NCBI RefSeq assembly: GCF_012972705.2
Contig: NZ_JABCSC020000001.1
Span: 1,178,001-1,242,000 of the forward strand
Direction of reading: 5' to 3'
DNA: 64,000 nucleotides
DNA from: Uliginosibacterium aquaticum
Lineage (GTDB): Bacteria; Pseudomonadota; Gammaproteobacteria; Burkholderiales; Rhodocyclaceae
Made by a program: the position numbers and the translations under genes. How positions within the stretch are numbered: position 1 is the first letter of the stretch; every line of letters begins with the position of its first letter. The notes beneath the pieces are model-generated. The model saw only the letters and a list, made by a program, of their open reading frames with translations. It was not told the origin of the DNA and did not search any database. Below, piece by piece: positions 30,402-40,167 of the stretch.

Positions 30402-31394
30402 TCAGCCAAGCAGGTCGGCAACGCCGGCACGCTCTTCTTCGAGTTCCTTCAGGGTGAAGTTCATCTTTTCACGCGAGAAGTCGTCAATTTCCAGGCCTTC
30501 GACACGCTTATATTCACCGTTGGCAGTGATGACCGGCACGCCGTAGATGATGCCAGCCGGGATGCCGTAGGAGCCATCAGACTCGACGCCCATGGTGACC
30601 CATTCGCCATTGGAGCCGAGGAACCAGTCGTGCATGTGGTCAATTGCGGCGTTTGCTGCCGAGGCTGCGGAGGACAGGCCGCGGGCTTCGATGATGGCGG
30701 CGCCGCGCTTGCCGACGGTGGGCAGGAAGGTGTCGCGATTCCAGGCTTCGTCGTTGATCAGGGCCTTCACGCTGTCACCGTTGCTGGTGACGAAGCGGTA
30801 GTCGGCATACATGGTCGGGCTGTGGTTGCCCCACACGATCAGGTTCTTCAGGCTGGAAACCGGGCGACCGGTCTTGCCGGAGAGTTGCGACAGGGCACGG
30901 TTGTGGTCCAGGCGCAGCATAGCGGTGAAGTTCTTGGCCGGCACGCGACCGAACTTCTTGGCGCTTTCCTTGGCGATGTAGGCGTTGGTGTTGCAGGGGT
31001 TGCCTACCACCAGGACGCGGCAATCCGGATCTGCGTACTGGCCGATGGCGGCGCCTTGCACGGTGAAGATCTTGGCGTTTTCGGCGAGCAGGTCCTTGCG
31101 CTCCATGCCGGGGCCGCGCGGGCGAGCGCCGACGAGCAGAGCGGCCTGGGTGTCCTTGAAGGCCACGGCCGGATCGTCAGTGGCGATCACGCCAGCCAAT
31201 AGCGGGAAAGCACAGTCTTCCAGTTCCATGATTACGCCGGCCAGCGCCTTCTGGGCTTGCGGCAGATCGAGCAGTTGCAGGATGACCGGCTGGTCTTTGC
31301 CGAGCATTTCGCCCGAAGCAATACGGAACAGCAGGCTGTAACCGATCTGACCGGCAGCGCCGGTAACGGTGACACGGATGGGCGACTTGGACAT
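30402..31394 (-). CDS. mdh: Malate dehydrogenase
   Basis: NAD-dependent oxidation of malate to oxaloacetate. 330 residues, of the cytosolic/type-2 MDH kind. NAD motif [15 protein letters not shown]; substrate-binding [14 protein letters not shown] mobile loop; catalytic pair in [10 protein letters not shown] and [13 protein letters not shown] (His of GNHS). First gene of the leftward unit mdh / CitE-like / acnB. It diverges from gntR across a 200-nt region that contains the candidate GntR operator, so control by that regulator is plausible. Confidence 0.98.
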
Positions 31395-31594: not shown

Positions 31595-32332
31595 ATGATC
31601 GTTATGGCACACGAATCGCCAACTTTCAGCCCCTTGTACCGACAGATCAAGAATCTAATCGTTCAGGCGCTTGACTCGGGGGAATGGCTTCCCGGGCAAA
31701 CGATCCCGAGCGAGCAGGAGCTTGCGCTGCGCTTTGGTGTGAGTCAGGGCACCGTACGCAAGGCCGTTGATGAGTTGGCGGCCGAGAACATCCTTGTGCG
31801 CCGCCAGGGTAAGGGCACGTTCGTGTCCACTCATCAGGATCCGCGCGCTGTATTCCGCTTTCTGCGTCTGAAGGCCGTCAATGGCGGTCCGGTGCTGCCC
31901 AAGAGTCAGCCGCTCGAATGTCTGCGCGGCAAGGCTGGGCAGGAGGCTGCCCGCAACCTTGGTATCGAACCTGGTAGCCAGATCTTCATCGTGCGTCGGG
32001 TGCTGAAATTTGACGGCAAGCCGGTGGTGATCGATGAAATGTACTTGCCGGGCGATGTTTTTCAGGGCTTAAGCCTGGAAATGCTCAAGGAATGGCAAGG
32101 CTCGCTCTACAGTCTGTTTGAATCCCGTTTCGGTGTGCGCATGGTGCGCGCGACCGAGAAGATTCGTGCTGTTTCGGCTGACCGTGCGGTGGCTGACGTT
32201 CTGAATGTACAGGAGAGCACGCCCCTGCTTTCCGTAGAGCGACTGGCGTATACCTACGGTGACAAGCCGGTGGAGTGGAGACGCGGCCTGTACTCGACCG
32301 CTGAACACTTCTATATAAATGAACTGAGTTGA
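31595..32332 (+). CDS. GntR-family (HutC-type, UTRA) transcriptional regulator of the TCA block
   Basis: 245 residues. N-terminal winged HTH (PLYRQIKNLIVQALDSGEWLP; ALRFGVSQGTVRKAVDELAAENILVRRQGKGTFV), then a UTRA effector domain (VRRVLKFDGKPVVIDEMYLPG; VRATEKIRAVSADRAVADVL; YTYGDKPVEWRRGLYSTAEHFY). It is transcribed into sdhC with only 59 nt between, and diverges from mdh, so it probably controls the succinate dehydrogenase operon and perhaps mdh. The ATG at 31607 (MAHESPT) is an alternative start. Confidence 0.93.
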   Translation: MIVMAHESPTFSPLYRQIKNLIVQALDSGEWLPGQTIPSEQELALRFGVSQGTVRKAVDELAAENILVRRQGKGTFVSTHQDPRAVFRFLRLKAVNGGPVLPKSQPLECLRGKAGQEAARNLGIEPGSQIFIVRRVLKFDGKPVVIDEMYLPGDVFQGLSLEMLKEWQGSLYSLFESRFGVRMVRATEKIRAVSADRAVADVLNVQESTPLLSVERLAYTYGDKPVEWRRGLYSTAEHFYINELS

Positions 32333-33137: not shown

Positions 33138-34910
33138 GTGAAAGTCGCCAAGCGTACGTTTGATGCAGTAATCGTCGGTGCTGGTGGCGCCGGCATGCGT
33201 GCTGCGGTGACTCTGGCTGAATCTGGCCTGAAGACCGCAGTGATCTCCAAGGTGTTCCCGACCCGCTCGCATACCGTTGCAGCGCAGGGTGGGGTTTCCG
33301 CTTCGCTGGGTAACTCCGAGCCGGATCACTGGACCTGGCACATGTATGACACCGTCAAGGGTTCCGACTGGCTCGGTGACCAGGACGCGATCGAGTTCAT
33401 GTGCAAGCAGGCGCCGCAAGTGGTGGTCGAGCTTGAGCACTATGGCATGCCGTTTGACCGCACCGATGAGGGCAAGATCTATCAGCGCCCCTTCGGTGGC
33501 CACATGTCGAATTTCGGCGAAAAGCCGGTGCGTCGCGCCTGTGCGGCGGCTGACCGCACAGGTCATGCCATGCTGCATGCGCTGTATCAGCGCAATGTGC
33601 GCGCCAACACCCAGTTCTTCGTCGAATGGCTGGCGCTGGATATGCTGCGCGCACCCGATGGTCGCGTGCTGGGCGTGATCGCGATGGAGATGGAAACGGG
33701 TGAAATCACCGTGTTCCAGGCCAAGGCGACCTTATTTGCCACGGGTGGTGCTGGTCGTATCTATTACTCATCGACCAACGCCTTCATCAATACCGGTGAC
33801 GGCGTGGGCATGGCGGCGCGTGCCGGTATCCCGCTGGAAGATATGGAATTCTGGCAGTTCCATCCGACCGGGGTGGCCGGTGCGGGCGTGCTGATCACCG
33901 AAGGCGTGCGCGGCGAAGGCGGCATTCTGCGCAATGCTTCGGGCGAGCGCTTCATGGAACGCTACGCACCGAATGCCAAGGATCTGGCTTCGCGTGACGT
34001 GGTCTCGCGCGCCATGGTTACCGAGATCAATGAAGGTCGCGGCTGTGGTACCAACAAGGACCATGTGCTGCTCGACATCACCCACCTTGATGCCGACGTG
34101 ATCAACAAGCGTCTGCCGGGGATCCGCGAGATCTCGATCCAGTTCGCCGGAACCGACCCGATTAAGGCGCCGATCCCTGTGGTGCCGACCTGTCACTACC
34201 AGATGGGTGGCATCCCGACCAACTACCGTGGTGAAGTCGTTGCCAACGGCGAGCCTGTTGCCGGCTTCTATGCCGCAGGTGAATGCGCTTGTGCGTCGGT
34301 GCATGGTGCAAATCGTCTGGGTACTAACTCGCTGCTTGATTTGCTGGTCTTCGGCAAGAGCTCCGGCGAGTCGATGATCGATTTCATCAAGAACGAACCT
34401 GCTGCCATGCCGGAAATTCCGCAAGGCGAGATCGACAAGGCGCTGGCACGCGTCAATCGTCTGAACACGCAGACCCATGGCGCCGACGTGCACGAGACGC
34501 GTCTGGCCATGCAGCGCACCATGCAGGCGCACGCCGGCGTGTTCCGCTTCAAAGACATGCTCGCTCAGGGCGTGGACAAGATCCTGGAGATCGAGAAGCA
34601 GGTGCTGCAGACCGAGATCAAGGACAAGTCGCAGGTCTGGAACACAGCCCGTATCGAGGCGCTGGAGCTGGAGAACCTGATCGAAGTGGCCAAGGCCACC
34701 ATGATCTCGGCTAATGCCCGTACCGAGTCGCGTGGCGCCCATGTGCGCGACGATGCGCCGGACACTCCGGAACATCCGAATGGTCGTGACGACGCGAACT
34801 GGCTCAAGCACACGCTGTGGCACCGCGAAGGCAATCGCCTGGAGTACAAGCCGGTGAACCTGAAACCGCTGACTGTCGAGAGCGTTGCGCTCAAGACGCG
34901 CTCTTACTGA
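33138..34910 (+). CDS. sdhA: Succinate dehydrogenase flavoprotein subunit
   Basis: 590 residues, standard length. FAD motif VIVGAGGAGMRAAV (11-24); His45 in RSHTVAAQGG is the covalent FAD attachment site, which SdhE flavinylates; substrate-binding and active-site regions (HPTGVAGAGVLITEGVRGEGG; VPTCHYQMGG; HGANRLGTNSLLDLLVFGK). It starts with GTG immediately after the sdhD stop, with GGAGG upstream. Oxidises succinate to fumarate on the cytoplasmic face of complex II. Confidence 0.98.
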   Translation: MKVAKRTFDAVIVGAGGAGMRAAVTLAESGLKTAVISKVFPTRSHTVAAQGGVSASLGNSEPDHWTWHMYDTVKGSDWLGDQDAIEFMCKQAPQVVVELEHYGMPFDRTDEGKIYQRPFGGHMSNFGEKPVRRACAAADRTGHAMLHALYQRNVRANTQFFVEWLALDMLRAPDGRVLGVIAMEMETGEITVFQAKATLFATGGAGRIYYSSTNAFINTGDGVGMAARAGIPLEDMEFWQFHPTGVAGAGVLITEGVRGEGGILRNASGERFMERYAPNAKDLASRDVVSRAMVTEINEGRGCGTNKDHVLLDITHLDADVINKRLPGIREISIQFAGTDPIKAPIPVVPTCHYQMGGIPTNYRGEVVANGEPVAGFYAAGECACASVHGANRLGTNSLLDLLVFGKSSGESMIDFIKNEPAAMPEIPQGEIDKALARVNRLNTQTHGADVHETRLAMQRTMQAHAGVFRFKDMLAQGVDKILEIEKQVLQTEIKDKSQVWNTARIEALELENLIEVAKATMISANARTESRGAHVRDDAPDTPEHPNGRDDANWLKHTLWHREGNRLEYKPVNLKPLTVESVALKTRSY

Positions 34911-34930: not shown

Positions 34931-35638
34931 ATGACCCGTACCGTCAAATTCAAGATCTATCGCTACGATCCGGACAAGGACGCAGCACCCTACATGCAGG
35001 ACCTCTCTGTCGAACTCGATCCGTCTGACCGCAAGCTGCTCGACGCGCTTGTGAAGATCAAGGCGCTGGATGACTCGATGTCCTATCGCCGTTCCTGCCG
35101 CGAAGGCGTGTGTGGTTCGGACGCCATGAACATCAACGGCAAGAATGGTCTGGCCTGCCTGACCGATATCGACAGTCTCGCGCAGCCGATCACGCTGCGT
35201 CCGCTGCCCGGTCTGCCGGTGATCCGCGACTTGATTGTGGATATGACCCAGTTCTTCAAGCAGTACCACTCGATCAAGCCGTACGTGGTGAACAACTCGC
35301 CGGCGCCCGAGAAAGAGCGTCTGCAGACGCCGGATGAGCGCGAAGAGCTCAACGGCCTCTACGAGTGCATCCTGTGCGCTTGCTGCTCGACGAGCTGCCC
35401 GAGCTTCTGGTGGAACCCCGACAAATTCGTGGGTCCAGCCGGTCTGCTGGCTGCTTACCGTTTCATCGCCGATACGCGCGACGAAGCCACCAACGAGCGC
35501 CTGGACAACCTTGAAGATCCGTATCGCCTGTTCCGTTGCCACACCATCATGAACTGCGTGGATGTGTGTCCGAAGCATCTGAACCCGACCAAGGCCATCG
35601 GCAAGATCAAGGAATTGATGTTGTCGCGGGCAGTCTGA
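34931..35638 (+). CDS. sdhB: Succinate dehydrogenase iron-sulfur subunit
   Basis: 235 residues. The [2Fe-2S] ligands are in SCREGVCGSDAMNINGKNGLAC (positions 56, 61, 64 as Asp, and 76). The [4Fe-4S] and [3Fe-4S] ligands are in CILCACCSTSCPSFWW and CHTIMNCVDVCPKHLNP. GGGAG lies upstream of the ATG. It passes electrons from SdhA to the membrane anchor. The next frame, sdhE, opens 3 nt after its stop. Confidence 0.98.
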   Translation: MTRTVKFKIYRYDPDKDAAPYMQDLSVELDPSDRKLLDALVKIKALDDSMSYRRSCREGVCGSDAMNINGKNGLACLTDIDSLAQPITLRPLPGLPVIRDLIVDMTQFFKQYHSIKPYVVNNSPAPEKERLQTPDEREELNGLYECILCACCSTSCPSFWWNPDKFVGPAGLLAAYRFIADTRDEATNERLDNLEDPYRLFRCHTIMNCVDVCPKHLNPTKAIGKIKELMLSRAV

Positions 35639-35641
35639 TCG

Positions 35642-35950
35642 ATGGCACAACACAAGGCACTGCGCGAGAAGATCAAATGGCGGGCCCGGCGTGGCTTGCT
35701 GGAGATTGACCTGTTCTTCACGCGCTTTGCCGCGACGGAACTCGACAAGCTCGACGAGGCCCAACTGCTCGACCTGCAGGATCTCTTGACCTGCGATGAC
35801 CACGAATTGTGGGCCATGCTCAACGGCAAGCAGGAATGTACGGTCGAGAAGTGGAAAAACATGGTGGCGCTGCTCAGGCAGAGCGCACCGGACCTACCCT
35901 TAGCAGCACCAACAGAAGCACCTACACGTTCTACAGAAGGGAAAGCAGGC
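35642..35950 (+). CDS. sdhE: SdhE (FAD assembly factor) domain, no stop codon, in frame with gltA
   Basis: SdhE promotes covalent flavinylation of SdhA. About 80 residues match the family: [21 protein letters not shown] with the RGxxE motif, then [24 protein letters not shown]. The frame does not stop after the expected 85-90 codons. It continues through a Pro/Thr/Ala-rich stretch of about 24 residues ([20 protein letters not shown]) straight into the gltA ATG at 35951, giving a 536-residue ORF that ends at 37252. A TAG at 35901-35903, where SdhE would normally end, lies one frame away, so either a real fusion or a one-base sequence error is possible. Confidence 0.88.
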
Positions 35951-37252
35951 ATGACTACACAGAAAACCGCGACGCTGGGCTTCAATGGCCAGTCTTACGA
36001 GTTTCCGGTGCTCTCCGGCAGCATCGGTCCGGATGTCATTGACATCCGCACGCTCTATGGCAAGACCGGTGCCTTTACCTTCGACCCAGGCTTCATGTCG
36101 ACGGCTGCGTGCAAGTCCTCGATCACTTACATCGATGGCGATAAGGGCGAGCTGCTGTATCGCGGCTATCCGATCGAACAACTCGCAGTGAACTGCGACT
36201 ATCTCGAAACCTGCTACTTGCTCAAGCATGGCGAGCTGCCGAGCAAGACACAGTACGACGAGTTCGTGAAGACCGTGCGTGATCACACCATGGTGCACGA
36301 ACAACTGACCCGCCTGTATCAAGGTTTTCGCCGCGATGCACACCCGATGGCGATTCTGGTTGGCATGGTCGGCTCGCTGTCGGCCTACTACCAAGATTCT
36401 CTGGATATCACCAACCCGGAGCACCGTACCGTTGCTGCAATGCGTTTGATCGCCAAGCTGCCGACGATCACCGCGATGGCCTACAAGTACACGATCGGCG
36501 AACCCTTCATGTACCCGCGTAATGATCTGGACTACTCCAGCAACTTCCTGCATATGATGTTCGCCACGCCGTGCGAGAAGTACGAGCCGAACCCGGTGCT
36601 GGCCCGTGCGCTGGATCGCATCCTGATCCTGCACGCCGATCACGAGCAGAACGCCTCCACCTCCACCGTGCGCCTGTCCGGCTCCTCGGGTGCCAACCCC
36701 TTCGCCTGTATCGCCGCCGGTATCGCCTGTCTGTGGGGTCCGGCACACGGCGGCGCCAACGAAGCCTGTCTGGTGATGCTGGAAGACATCATGAAGCAGG
36801 GTGGTGTCGAGAAGATCGGTGAGTTCATCGCCCAGGTGAAGGACAAGAACTCCAACGTCAAGCTGATGGGCTTCGGTCACCGCGTCTACAAGAACTACGA
36901 CCCGCGCGCCAAGCTGATGCGTGAAACCTGCCATGAAGTGCTGAATGAACTGGGCCTGCAGGACGATCCGATGTTCAAGCTGGCGATGGCTCTGGAAAAG
37001 ATCGCGCTGGAAGACGAGTATTTCGTGTCCCGCAAGCTCTACCCGAACGTCGACTTCTACTCCGGCATCGTGCAGAAGGCCATGGGCATCCCCGTGTCGC
37101 TCTTTACCGGCATCTTCGCGATGGCCCGCACCATCGGCTGGATTGCCCAGTGGAACGAAATGATCGGCGATCCGGAGCAGAAGATTGGTCGTCCGCGTCA
37201 GCTTTACACCGGCGCACCGCAGCGCGATGTGAAGCCGATGGCATTCCGTTAA
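35951..37252 (+). CDS. gltA: Citrate synthase
   Basis: Condenses oxaloacetate and acetyl-CoA. 433 residues from the ATG at 35951 ([20 protein letters not shown]), which is the usual hexameric type-II start. AGAAGGGAAAGC upstream is an acceptable ribosome binding site. Active-site segments are intact: [36 protein letters not shown], and the C-terminal RPRQLYTG. The same frame is open upstream through the whole of sdhE, so the protein may also be made with an N-terminal SdhE extension. Within the operon it follows sdhCDAB and precedes odhA by 65 nt. Confidence 0.97.
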
Positions 37253-37317
37253 GCCAAGAACACCGCCCGAGAACCGGGGGTCACCAGCAGCCCCCGCAGA
37301 GATAAAGGCCATCCAAG

Positions 37318-40167
37318 ATGAGACAGTACCAGCTCAATTCCTACCTGTTCGGCAGCAATGCGCCGTTCATTGAAGAGCTCTACGAGACTTACCTCGAGAA
37401 CCCCTCGAACGTGCCGGATCAATGGCGCGACTATTTCGATTCGCTGCAGAACCTGCCGGGTGCAAGTCGTGATGTGGCTCATGCACCCGTCATCGCTTCG
37501 TTTGCGCAGATTGCCAAGCAGGGTAAGCCGCTGTCGGCGGCTGTCACTACGCCGGGTGTGGCCGACAAGCGTCAGATCAGCGTGCTGCAGATGATCAACG
37601 CCTACCGCTTCCTTGGTAACCGCTGGGCACAGATCGATCCGCTTAAGCGCCAGGAGCGCCCCTCGATTGCCGAGCTGGAGCCGTCCTATTACGGCTTCAC
37701 CGAAGCGGATCTCTCCACCAGCTTCAACATCGGCTCCTTCCAGTTTCAGGAAAAGAGCCAGGCATCCCTGCGCGAGATTCTCGACGCTGCCCGCCAGACC
37801 TACTGTGGCACGTTGGCAGTCGAGTACATGTACATGGCCGACGTACAGCAGAAGCGCTGGATCCAGAGCCGTCTGGAGCCGATCCGCTCGACGCCGTCCT
37901 TCGATGTGCCGACCAAGAAGCGCATCCTCGAGCGCCTGACCGCAGCGGAAACCCTGGAAAAGTATCTCCATACCCGTTACGTCGGCCAGAAGCGTTTCTC
38001 GCTGGAAGGCGGCGATACGGCGATCGTGGCGATGGATACCTTCATCAACACCGCTGGCTCGCTGGGCGTGCAGGAAATCGTGATTGGCATGGCCCACCGC
38101 GGCCGCCTCAATGTGCTGGTCAATGTGCTGGGCAAGGCGCCCAAGATGCTGTTCGAAGAGTTTGAAGGCAAGCATGCTTCCGACCTGTCGGCTGGTGACG
38201 TGAAGTACCACATGGGCTTCTCCAGCGACGTGAACACTGCTGGTGGCCCGGTGCACCTGACTCTGGCCTTCAATCCTTCTCACCTTGAGATCGTGAATCC
38301 GGTGGTGCAGGGCTCCGTCTATGCGCGCCAGACCCGCCGCAATGACGTCAGCAAGAGCCAGGTGGTGCCGCTGCTGATCCACGGTGATGCTGCAGTGGCT
38401 GGCCAGGGCATCAACCAGGAACTGCTCAACTTCAGCCAGACTCGTGGTTACGGCACGGGTGGCGCAGTGCATCTGGTGATCAACAACCAGATCGGCTTCA
38501 CGACTTCGGATCCGCGCGATTCGCGTTCCTCGATCTACTGCACCGACATCTTCAAGATGGGCGAGTGCCCGATCTTCCACGTCAATGCAGACGATCCGGA
38601 AGCGGTGGCGCTGGCTTGCCAGTTGGCCGTCGAATTCCGCCAGACCTTCAAGAAGGATGTTGTCATCGATCTGTTGTGCTATCGCAAGCTCGGTCACAAC
38701 GAAGCGGATGAGCCGATGGTCACCCAGCCGCTGATGTACAAGAAGATCGCTCAGCATCCGGGTACGCGCAAGCTGTACGCCGACAAGCTGGTCGGGCAGG
38801 GGGTAATCAGTGCAGACGAGCCGGACAAGATGATCGCTGAATACCGCGAGCATCTGGATCGTGGCGAGCTGCTTTACAACCCGGTGCTTTCCGGCCATAG
38901 CCGGAAGTTCGCTCAGGACTGGACGCCCTTCATCAAGAAGGAATACACGGATGATGCCAAGACTGGCGTGCCGATGACCGAGCTGAAGCGTCTGGCCAAG
39001 CGTCTGGTCGATGTGCCGGCTGATTTCACCCTGCATTCCCGCGTCTCCAACATCATTGAGGCCCGCAAGGCTATGGGTGATGGCAGTCAGCCGCTGGACT
39101 GGGGGATGGCCGAAAACCTCGCCTACGCGTCGCTGGTGGCGCAAGGCTACGGCGTGCGCATCTCTGGTCAGGATTGCGGGCGTGGCACTTTCTTCCACCG
39201 CCATGCCGTACTGCACGATCAGAACCGCGAAAAGTGGGACGACGGCAATCTTGTGCCGCTGGCCAATATCCAACCCGAACAGGCGCCCTTCGTGGTGATC
39301 GACTCGGTGCTGTCCGAATCCGGCATCCTGGGTTTCGAATATGGCTACGCCACGGCCGAGCCGAACCAGCTCGTCGTGTGGGAAGCCCAGTTTGGTGACT
39401 TCGGCAATTGCGCCCAAGTCGTGATCGACCAGTTCATCGCGTCCGGCGAAGCCAAGTGGGGGCGTCAGGCTGGCATCACCATGCTGCTGCCGCATGGTTA
39501 CGAAGGTCAGGGCCCGGAGCACTCATCTGGTCGTCTGGAGCGTTACATGCAGCTGTGTGCCGAGAACAACTGGCAGGTTTGCGTGCCTTCCACTCCGGCC
39601 CAGATCTTCCACCTCTTGCGTCGCCAGATGGTGCGTCCGCTGCGCAAACCCTTGGTGGTCATGACACCAAAATCGCTGTTGCGCCACAAGGATGCCATCT
39701 CCTCACTGGACGACCTGGCCAATGGCAGCTTCCAGACCGTGATTGGCGAAGTCGACAAGTTCGATGCCAAGAAGGTCAAGCGCGTAGTGGTGTGCTCCGG
39801 CAAGCTCTATTACGAGCTGCTGGCCGAGCGCCGCGCCAAGGATCTGAAGGACACTGTCATCGTGCGTCTGGAGCAGCTGTATCCTTTCCCCAACGATGCA
39901 TTTGCACTTGAGCTGGCGAAGTACCCGAATGCCAAGGAAGTGGTGTGGTGTCAGGAAGAGCCGCGCAACCAGGGCGCCTGGTATTGGATCGCCTCGCGTC
40001 AGCACCTGACCCGCTCGATGGGCAGCAAGCACACCCTGTATCTGGTGAGCCGTCCGGCTTCGGCTTCGCCGGCCGTGGGCTACTACGCGGTGCACAATGC
40101 CCAGCAGCGCGAAGTGGTGGAAGGTGCCTTCGGCAAACTCGGACAAGACCTGGCTCCGCGCTCCTGA
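37318..40167 (+). CDS. odhA: 2-oxoglutarate dehydrogenase E1 component
   Basis: Thiamine-diphosphate-dependent decarboxylase of the 2-oxoglutarate dehydrogenase complex; 949 residues, normal length. N-terminal E2-binding helix (SYLFGSNAPFIEELYETYLENP); MAHRGRLNVLVNVLGK; the ThDP motif GDAAVAGQG...NNQIGFTTS; YRKLGHNEADEP; C-terminal GYEGQGPEHSSGRLER and EPRNQGAW. An AAAGG-type ribosome binding site lies upstream of the ATG. Second step of the gltA-odhA-odhB-lpd run. Confidence 0.98.
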   Translation: MRQYQLNSYLFGSNAPFIEELYETYLENPSNVPDQWRDYFDSLQNLPGASRDVAHAPVIASFAQIAKQGKPLSAAVTTPGVADKRQISVLQMINAYRFLGNRWAQIDPLKRQERPSIAELEPSYYGFTEADLSTSFNIGSFQFQEKSQASLREILDAARQTYCGTLAVEYMYMADVQQKRWIQSRLEPIRSTPSFDVPTKKRILERLTAAETLEKYLHTRYVGQKRFSLEGGDTAIVAMDTFINTAGSLGVQEIVIGMAHRGRLNVLVNVLGKAPKMLFEEFEGKHASDLSAGDVKYHMGFSSDVNTAGGPVHLTLAFNPSHLEIVNPVVQGSVYARQTRRNDVSKSQVVPLLIHGDAAVAGQGINQELLNFSQTRGYGTGGAVHLVINNQIGFTTSDPRDSRSSIYCTDIFKMGECPIFHVNADDPEAVALACQLAVEFRQTFKKDVVIDLLCYRKLGHNEADEPMVTQPLMYKKIAQHPGTRKLYADKLVGQGVISADEPDKMIAEYREHLDRGELLYNPVLSGHSRKFAQDWTPFIKKEYTDDAKTGVPMTELKRLAKRLVDVPADFTLHSRVSNIIEARKAMGDGSQPLDWGMAENLAYASLVAQGYGVRISGQDCGRGTFFHRHAVLHDQNREKWDDGNLVPLANIQPEQAPFVVIDSVLSESGILGFEYGYATAEPNQLVVWEAQFGDFGNCAQVVIDQFIASGEAKWGRQAGITMLLPHGYEGQGPEHSSGRLERYMQLCAENNWQVCVPSTPAQIFHLLRRQMVRPLRKPLVVMTPKSLLRHKDAISSLDDLANGSFQTVIGEVDKFDAKKVKRVVVCSGKLYYELLAERRAKDLKDTVIVRLEQLYPFPNDAFALELAKYPNAKEVVWCQEEPRNQGAWYWIASRQHLTRSMGSKHTLYLVSRPASASPAVGYYAVHNAQQREVVEGAFGKLGQDLAPRS

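Follow-up and report, generated by a model that had tools for sequence, protein, structure and literature searches.

An open frame joining the complex II assembly factor SdhE to citrate synthase in Uliginosibacterium aquaticum and several relatives

The sdhE-gltA locus

The window, by which we mean the whole stretch of 64,000 nucleotides analysed here, comes from Uliginosibacterium aquaticum and holds a gene cluster of the order sdhAB-sdhE-gltA-sucAB-lpd, in which the neighbouring genes were named by reading their translations. SdhE is usually a small helper that acts transiently in the maturation of a respiratory enzyme. Translation shows that in the window sdhE is joined to gltA in one uninterrupted frame of 536 codons with a terminal stop, and the original prediction, which described this frame as SdhE, a linker and a complete citrate synthase, was confirmed by that translation together with Pfam and NCBIfam searches. 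The features of the locus, in window coordinates, are:

33138..34910, plus strand: sdhA, the flavoprotein subunit with the motif SHTVAAQGG and the presumed substrate of SdhE (named from its translation)
34931..35638, plus strand: sdhB, ending three bases ahead of the start of the fused frame
35642..37252, plus strand: fused sdhE-gltA frame, 536 codons plus stop
35669..35881, plus strand: SdhE (Sdh5, PF03937) domain, residues 10-80 (Pfam, structure match)
35690..35704, plus strand: RGLLE, the RGxxE motif of SdhE, residues 17-21
35882..35950, plus strand: linker of 23 residues (81-103), rich in Pro, Ala, Thr and Glu
35936..35942, plus strand: GAAGGGA, resembling a ribosome-binding site, ahead of the internal gltA start and within the fused frame
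35951..37252, plus strand: gltA, coding for citrate synthase when read from its internal ATG (Pfam, NCBIfam)
36089..37198, plus strand: citrate synthase domain (PF00285), residues 150-519 (Pfam)
37318..40167, plus strand: sucA, downstream in the same cluster

Genes read from their translations as sucB and lpd also lie downstream of the fused gene. Upstream of the sdh genes is a gene for a GntR-like regulator (31595-32332), adjoined by a divergent malate dehydrogenase-like gene on the minus strand (30402-31394), both likewise named from their translations. Long open frames also run on the minus strand opposite gltA (35900-37312, 470 codons) and opposite sucA (37249-39522, 757 codons); these probably mirror the codon bias of the coding DNA on the other strand.

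Pfam recognised both parts of the translated frame: the Sdh5 match spans residues 10-80 (65.4 bits against a cut-off of 27, E = 4.4e-18) and the Citrate_synt match residues 150-519 (E = 1.1e-137). The NCBIfam citrate synthase model TIGR01798 matched residues 117-530 with 773.6 bits (cut-off 485.15), covering positions 2-412 of its 412. The NCBIfam SdhE equivalog NF008130 reached 27.5 bits at residues 9-80, under its cut-off of 120, a shortfall that denies the domain the NCBI equivalog label and not Pfam PF03937 membership. We aligned fused proteins with citrate synthases (alignment A3, 24 rows) and, separately, 28 SdhE rows (A4). H331, H334, H369 and D420 are invariant throughout the 24 rows, and we take the catalytic His/His/Asp to be among them by homology with the E. 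coli enzyme. The best solved relative of the citrate synthase part is 4xgh (PDB match, E = 2.1e-224).

A structure predicted for the SdhE domain by itself (mean pLDDT 83.0) has five helices, as in the five-helix SdhE fold, and resembles 6c12_D and 1x6i_A (TM 0.79 for each, both E below 0.001) as well as 6b58 (E = 4.5e-3). In a model of the full-length fusion (mean pLDDT 72.8), residues 77-106 fall below 50, consistent with a disordered linker; confidence in this model is low as well for the SdhE part and for certain segments of the citrate synthase. His45, within the SHTVAAQGG of SdhA, is presumably the FAD-linking histidine, by analogy with H44 of FrdA. The RGxxE motif is intact in the fused SdhE domain; passages of PMC5773532 report contact between G16 of this motif in SdhE and the FAD-linking histidine of FrdA, and reduced flavinylation when G16 is mutated.

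Occurrence of the fused frame

The original prediction had allowed that one extra base in the linker might account for the open frame, ahead of an out-of-frame TAG at 35901-35903; this TAG and the second start at 35951 are present in the sequence at those coordinates. In a sample of eight genomes of the genus, including the window's own (G000), five carry the fused open frame (G000, G007, G004, G005 and G002) and three have separate sdhE and gltA (G001, G003 and G006). Both Pfam domains were detected in all five fused genomes, and their linkers, counted from a common serine codon to the gltA ATG, are 69, 63, 51, 48 and 54 nt long, all divisible by three. Four further genomes thus share the open frame with linkers that differ from that of the window, which contradicts the extra-base explanation. 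The TAG at 35901 and the out-of-frame linker of G001 are what a sequencing or assembly error in the window has in its favour, and against this shared frame we consider such an error extremely improbable. Relatives with the linker out of frame, as an extra base would lead one to expect, are represented by G001, within the fused clade, but G007 and G004, nearest to the window in the tree, stay in frame. In G002, a run of N in sdhB (L054, about 121-391), just upstream of the fused gene, marks an assembly gap.

PF03937 gave a single match in each of the eight genus genomes, so that in the fused species the search found no SdhE besides the fused domain. A second, free SdhE was not found in the fused genomes by this search, and the idea that another copy has taken over the role was rejected on the same count.

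To place the fusion more widely, we surveyed the family, the order and the class. The family survey covered 395 genomes, 373 of them with a match, and retained the best-scoring matches only; outside the genus, every full-span alignment among the matches listed contains at least one stop. The order survey, run in the same way on 349 genomes (340 with a match), gave one further open full-span frame among the matches listed, in a genome of another family (G465, L063:1483-3123). This frame has both Pfam domains; its linker, at about 40 residues, is longer, and GGAGG precedes the gltA ATG. In G419, the only other genome examined from the genus and family of G465, an sdhE stop precedes gltA. The second case is apparently a separate, independent merger, with the caution that G465 is a single MAG-like assembly of about 480 contigs, with a completeness of 87% and a contamination of 5%. 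In the class survey of 360 genomes, at an E cut-off of 1e-222 under which distant fusions would be missed, five had a match and only the window was fused.

Candidates for further fusions were also followed up. Among the matches listed we chose by eye nine genomes in which the citrate synthase frame is long and open but no match spans both parts (G449, G684, G713, G283, G319, G159, G708, G547 and G509). None of them contains a fusion hidden by a long linker: in eight the SdhE match is in a different frame from citrate synthase, and G159, where the frame is shared, has a stop between the two. G035 was likewise rejected, sdhE and gltA lying in different frames. The original statement that the two genes are adjacent and separate in most relatives was right among the genomes examined.

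These results support a genuine gene fusion and not a sequencing artefact. As an overall interpretation, fusion stands for five genomes of the genus and for the separate case in another family, with the qualification that the linker of G001 is out of frame. A search of the open-licence PMC literature found no description of an SdhE-citrate synthase fusion, which as far as we have searched is undescribed.

Origin and persistence of the fusion

To see how the two genes came together, we compared the end of sdhE with the start of gltA at 30 loci, a set that leans to full-span matches because best matches were kept; two further loci, with no sdhE match in the stretch fetched, fall outside the 30. 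In the 25 unfused loci the distance ranges from -89 to +25. Within a series of 12 genomes it is -60 in G034, -57 in G030, -38 in G019 and -30 in G104, then within the genus -22 in G006, -8 in G003 and +1 in G001, with run-through in the five fused genomes. The sdhE stop is thus closer to gltA in nearer relatives; short distances also occur outside the genus (G057, -2; G029, +25). Because sdhE directly precedes gltA and its stop approaches gltA in this way, adjacency explains the origin of the fusion.

A tree of six cluster genes has the form (((G000,G007),G004),((G005,G001),G002)),G003. Parts of the data are missing for G002, G005 and G001, and support is uneven: bootstrap values from proteins and nucleotides are 96 and 57 for the six-species clade, 65 and 92 for G005 with G001, and 61 and 66 for that pair with G002. 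A clade of the five fused genomes without G001 was rejected by nucleotides (AU test, p 0.00026) and not by proteins (p 0.109). G001 (L055) groups inside the fused clade, although its sdhE stop and gltA start share bases (ATGA). The G001 linker is similar to the G002 linker, though not in frame, and since G001 is a draft with a coverage of 7, a base error in its linker is possible. An unfused G001 inside the clade, together with the rejection by nucleotides, implies that the cell can do without the fusion or that it was acquired on more than one occasion; either it had a single origin with loss in G001, or it had more than one origin. Between fused genomes gltA dS is 0.81-1.19, so that the fused state, if of single origin, is not recent.

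Is the frame maintained by selection? To account for five distinct linker lengths, a minimum of four changes in length is required; the chance that all of them are in frame is about 1/81 at 1/3 each. If G001 is included, whose linker has a sixth length and is out of frame, the same arithmetic gives P about 0.045 for four or more of five changes being in frame. When we simulated neutral evolution of the linker with branch lengths from 4-fold sites, all five linkers stayed stop-free with P 0.22-0.83; it is therefore no surprise to find linkers of this length without stops, and their absence proves nothing. Evidence for selection on the fused frame is suggestive only.

Products of the fused gene and their possible role

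The internal gltA ATG is kept in all five fused genomes, as is GAAGGG, which lies inside the fused frame and is read there as Glu-Gly. In the six cluster genes GGG accounts for 12 of 248 Gly codons, and because this codon is rare, the constancy of GAAGGG suggests that it acts as a ribosome-binding site. SD pairing was calculated at both starts for four of the fused genomes: in G000 and G007 the gltA site pairs more strongly than the sdhE site, in G004 less strongly, and in G005 the result depends on the start chosen. With both signals kept in the fused frame, two products would be expected, the fusion and a plain citrate synthase; from the sequence, translation from both 35642 and 35951, one of the possibilities raised in the original prediction, is the favoured reading. 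We regard it as very unlikely that the fusion is obligate, the long protein alone being made, citrate synthase activity depending on it and the internal start being silent. In its favour, the long frame is uninterrupted and begins next to sdhB, but conservation of the ATG and of GAAGGG, with its rare Gly codon, in all five fused genomes argues the other way.

We favour, with a probability of about 0.62 for the explanation as a whole, a genuine fusion with two products, in which an SdhE arm is active on mixed citrate synthase oligomers. The sdhE stop would have shifted up to and then into the ribosome-binding site of gltA, and a subsequent length change would have brought sdhE into frame with gltA. 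Ribosomes starting at 35642 would make SdhE-linker-citrate synthase, and those starting at 35951 plain citrate synthase. On its flexible linker the SdhE domain may still bind SdhA and promote FAD attachment. The citrate synthase part of the fusion and plain subunits would together form the usual oligomer, in which a fraction of the subunits would carry an SdhE arm, and the tether might bring some benefit.

Alternatively, the merger may be neutral: sdhE would have lost its stop next to a functioning start of gltA, giving a harmless read-on product with no benefit from the tether. This would be tolerated since gltA can still be translated from its own start and SdhE functions despite the extension. 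We consider this possible, if on balance doubtful. Several observations agree with it, namely that the internal start signals are kept in five of five fused genomes, that G001 does without the fusion, that the absence of stops is compatible with chance and that a separate merger occurs in one MAG, G465, whose congener G419 has an sdhE stop. However, each sdhE start would then yield a protein of about 60 kDa and not one of about 10 kDa, presumably at a cost, the length changes among the five linkers are all in frame, and the fusion has persisted at a dS of about 1.

The fusion with two products could also have been selected for the link itself, both physical and stoichiometric, in line with the coupling of complex II assembly to citrate synthase suggested in the original prediction. 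Arm-bearing oligomers would dock on new SdhA and so tie flavinylation of complex II to the amount or state of the cycle's first enzyme, or they would bring citrate synthase to complex II at the membrane. We think this stronger version unlikely. According to PMC10238741, a proposed Krebs metabolon could contain complex II, and bacterial SdhE complexes dissociate readily.

That the sole SdhE found in a genome is naturally fused to a central enzyme suggests that this factor works, or must work, when tethered. The fusion provides a probe, already made, of how SdhE and SdhA bind each other in cells, and a natural test of whether there is any benefit in coupling two enzymes of the cycle. The series of relatives, from separate through nearly touching and overlapping to fused, is a compact record of the merger of neighbouring genes.

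Several known systems resemble parts of this arrangement. With SdhE/Sdh5/SDHAF2 (PF03937), the FAD assembly factor of complex II, the fused domain shares family, RGxxE motif and predicted fold; it is present in one copy and adjoins sdhAB, so that its SdhA partner is encoded upstream in the window too. The solved SdhE relatives that we found are, however, small free proteins of about 80-125 residues, whereas SdhE in the window is the N-terminal domain of an enzyme. With GltA (TIGR01798) the window protein shares the full-length citrate synthase domain, but when translated from the first start it additionally carries the SdhE domain and the linker. The conserved internal ATG in a longer frame recalls Cas11b within cas8b, as described in PMC11899642, and sdhE-gltA has an element like a ribosome-binding site ahead of its own. 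There the short product serves the same complex, whereas sdhE-gltA, whose internal start is predicted from sequence, joins the maturation factor of one enzyme to another enzyme.
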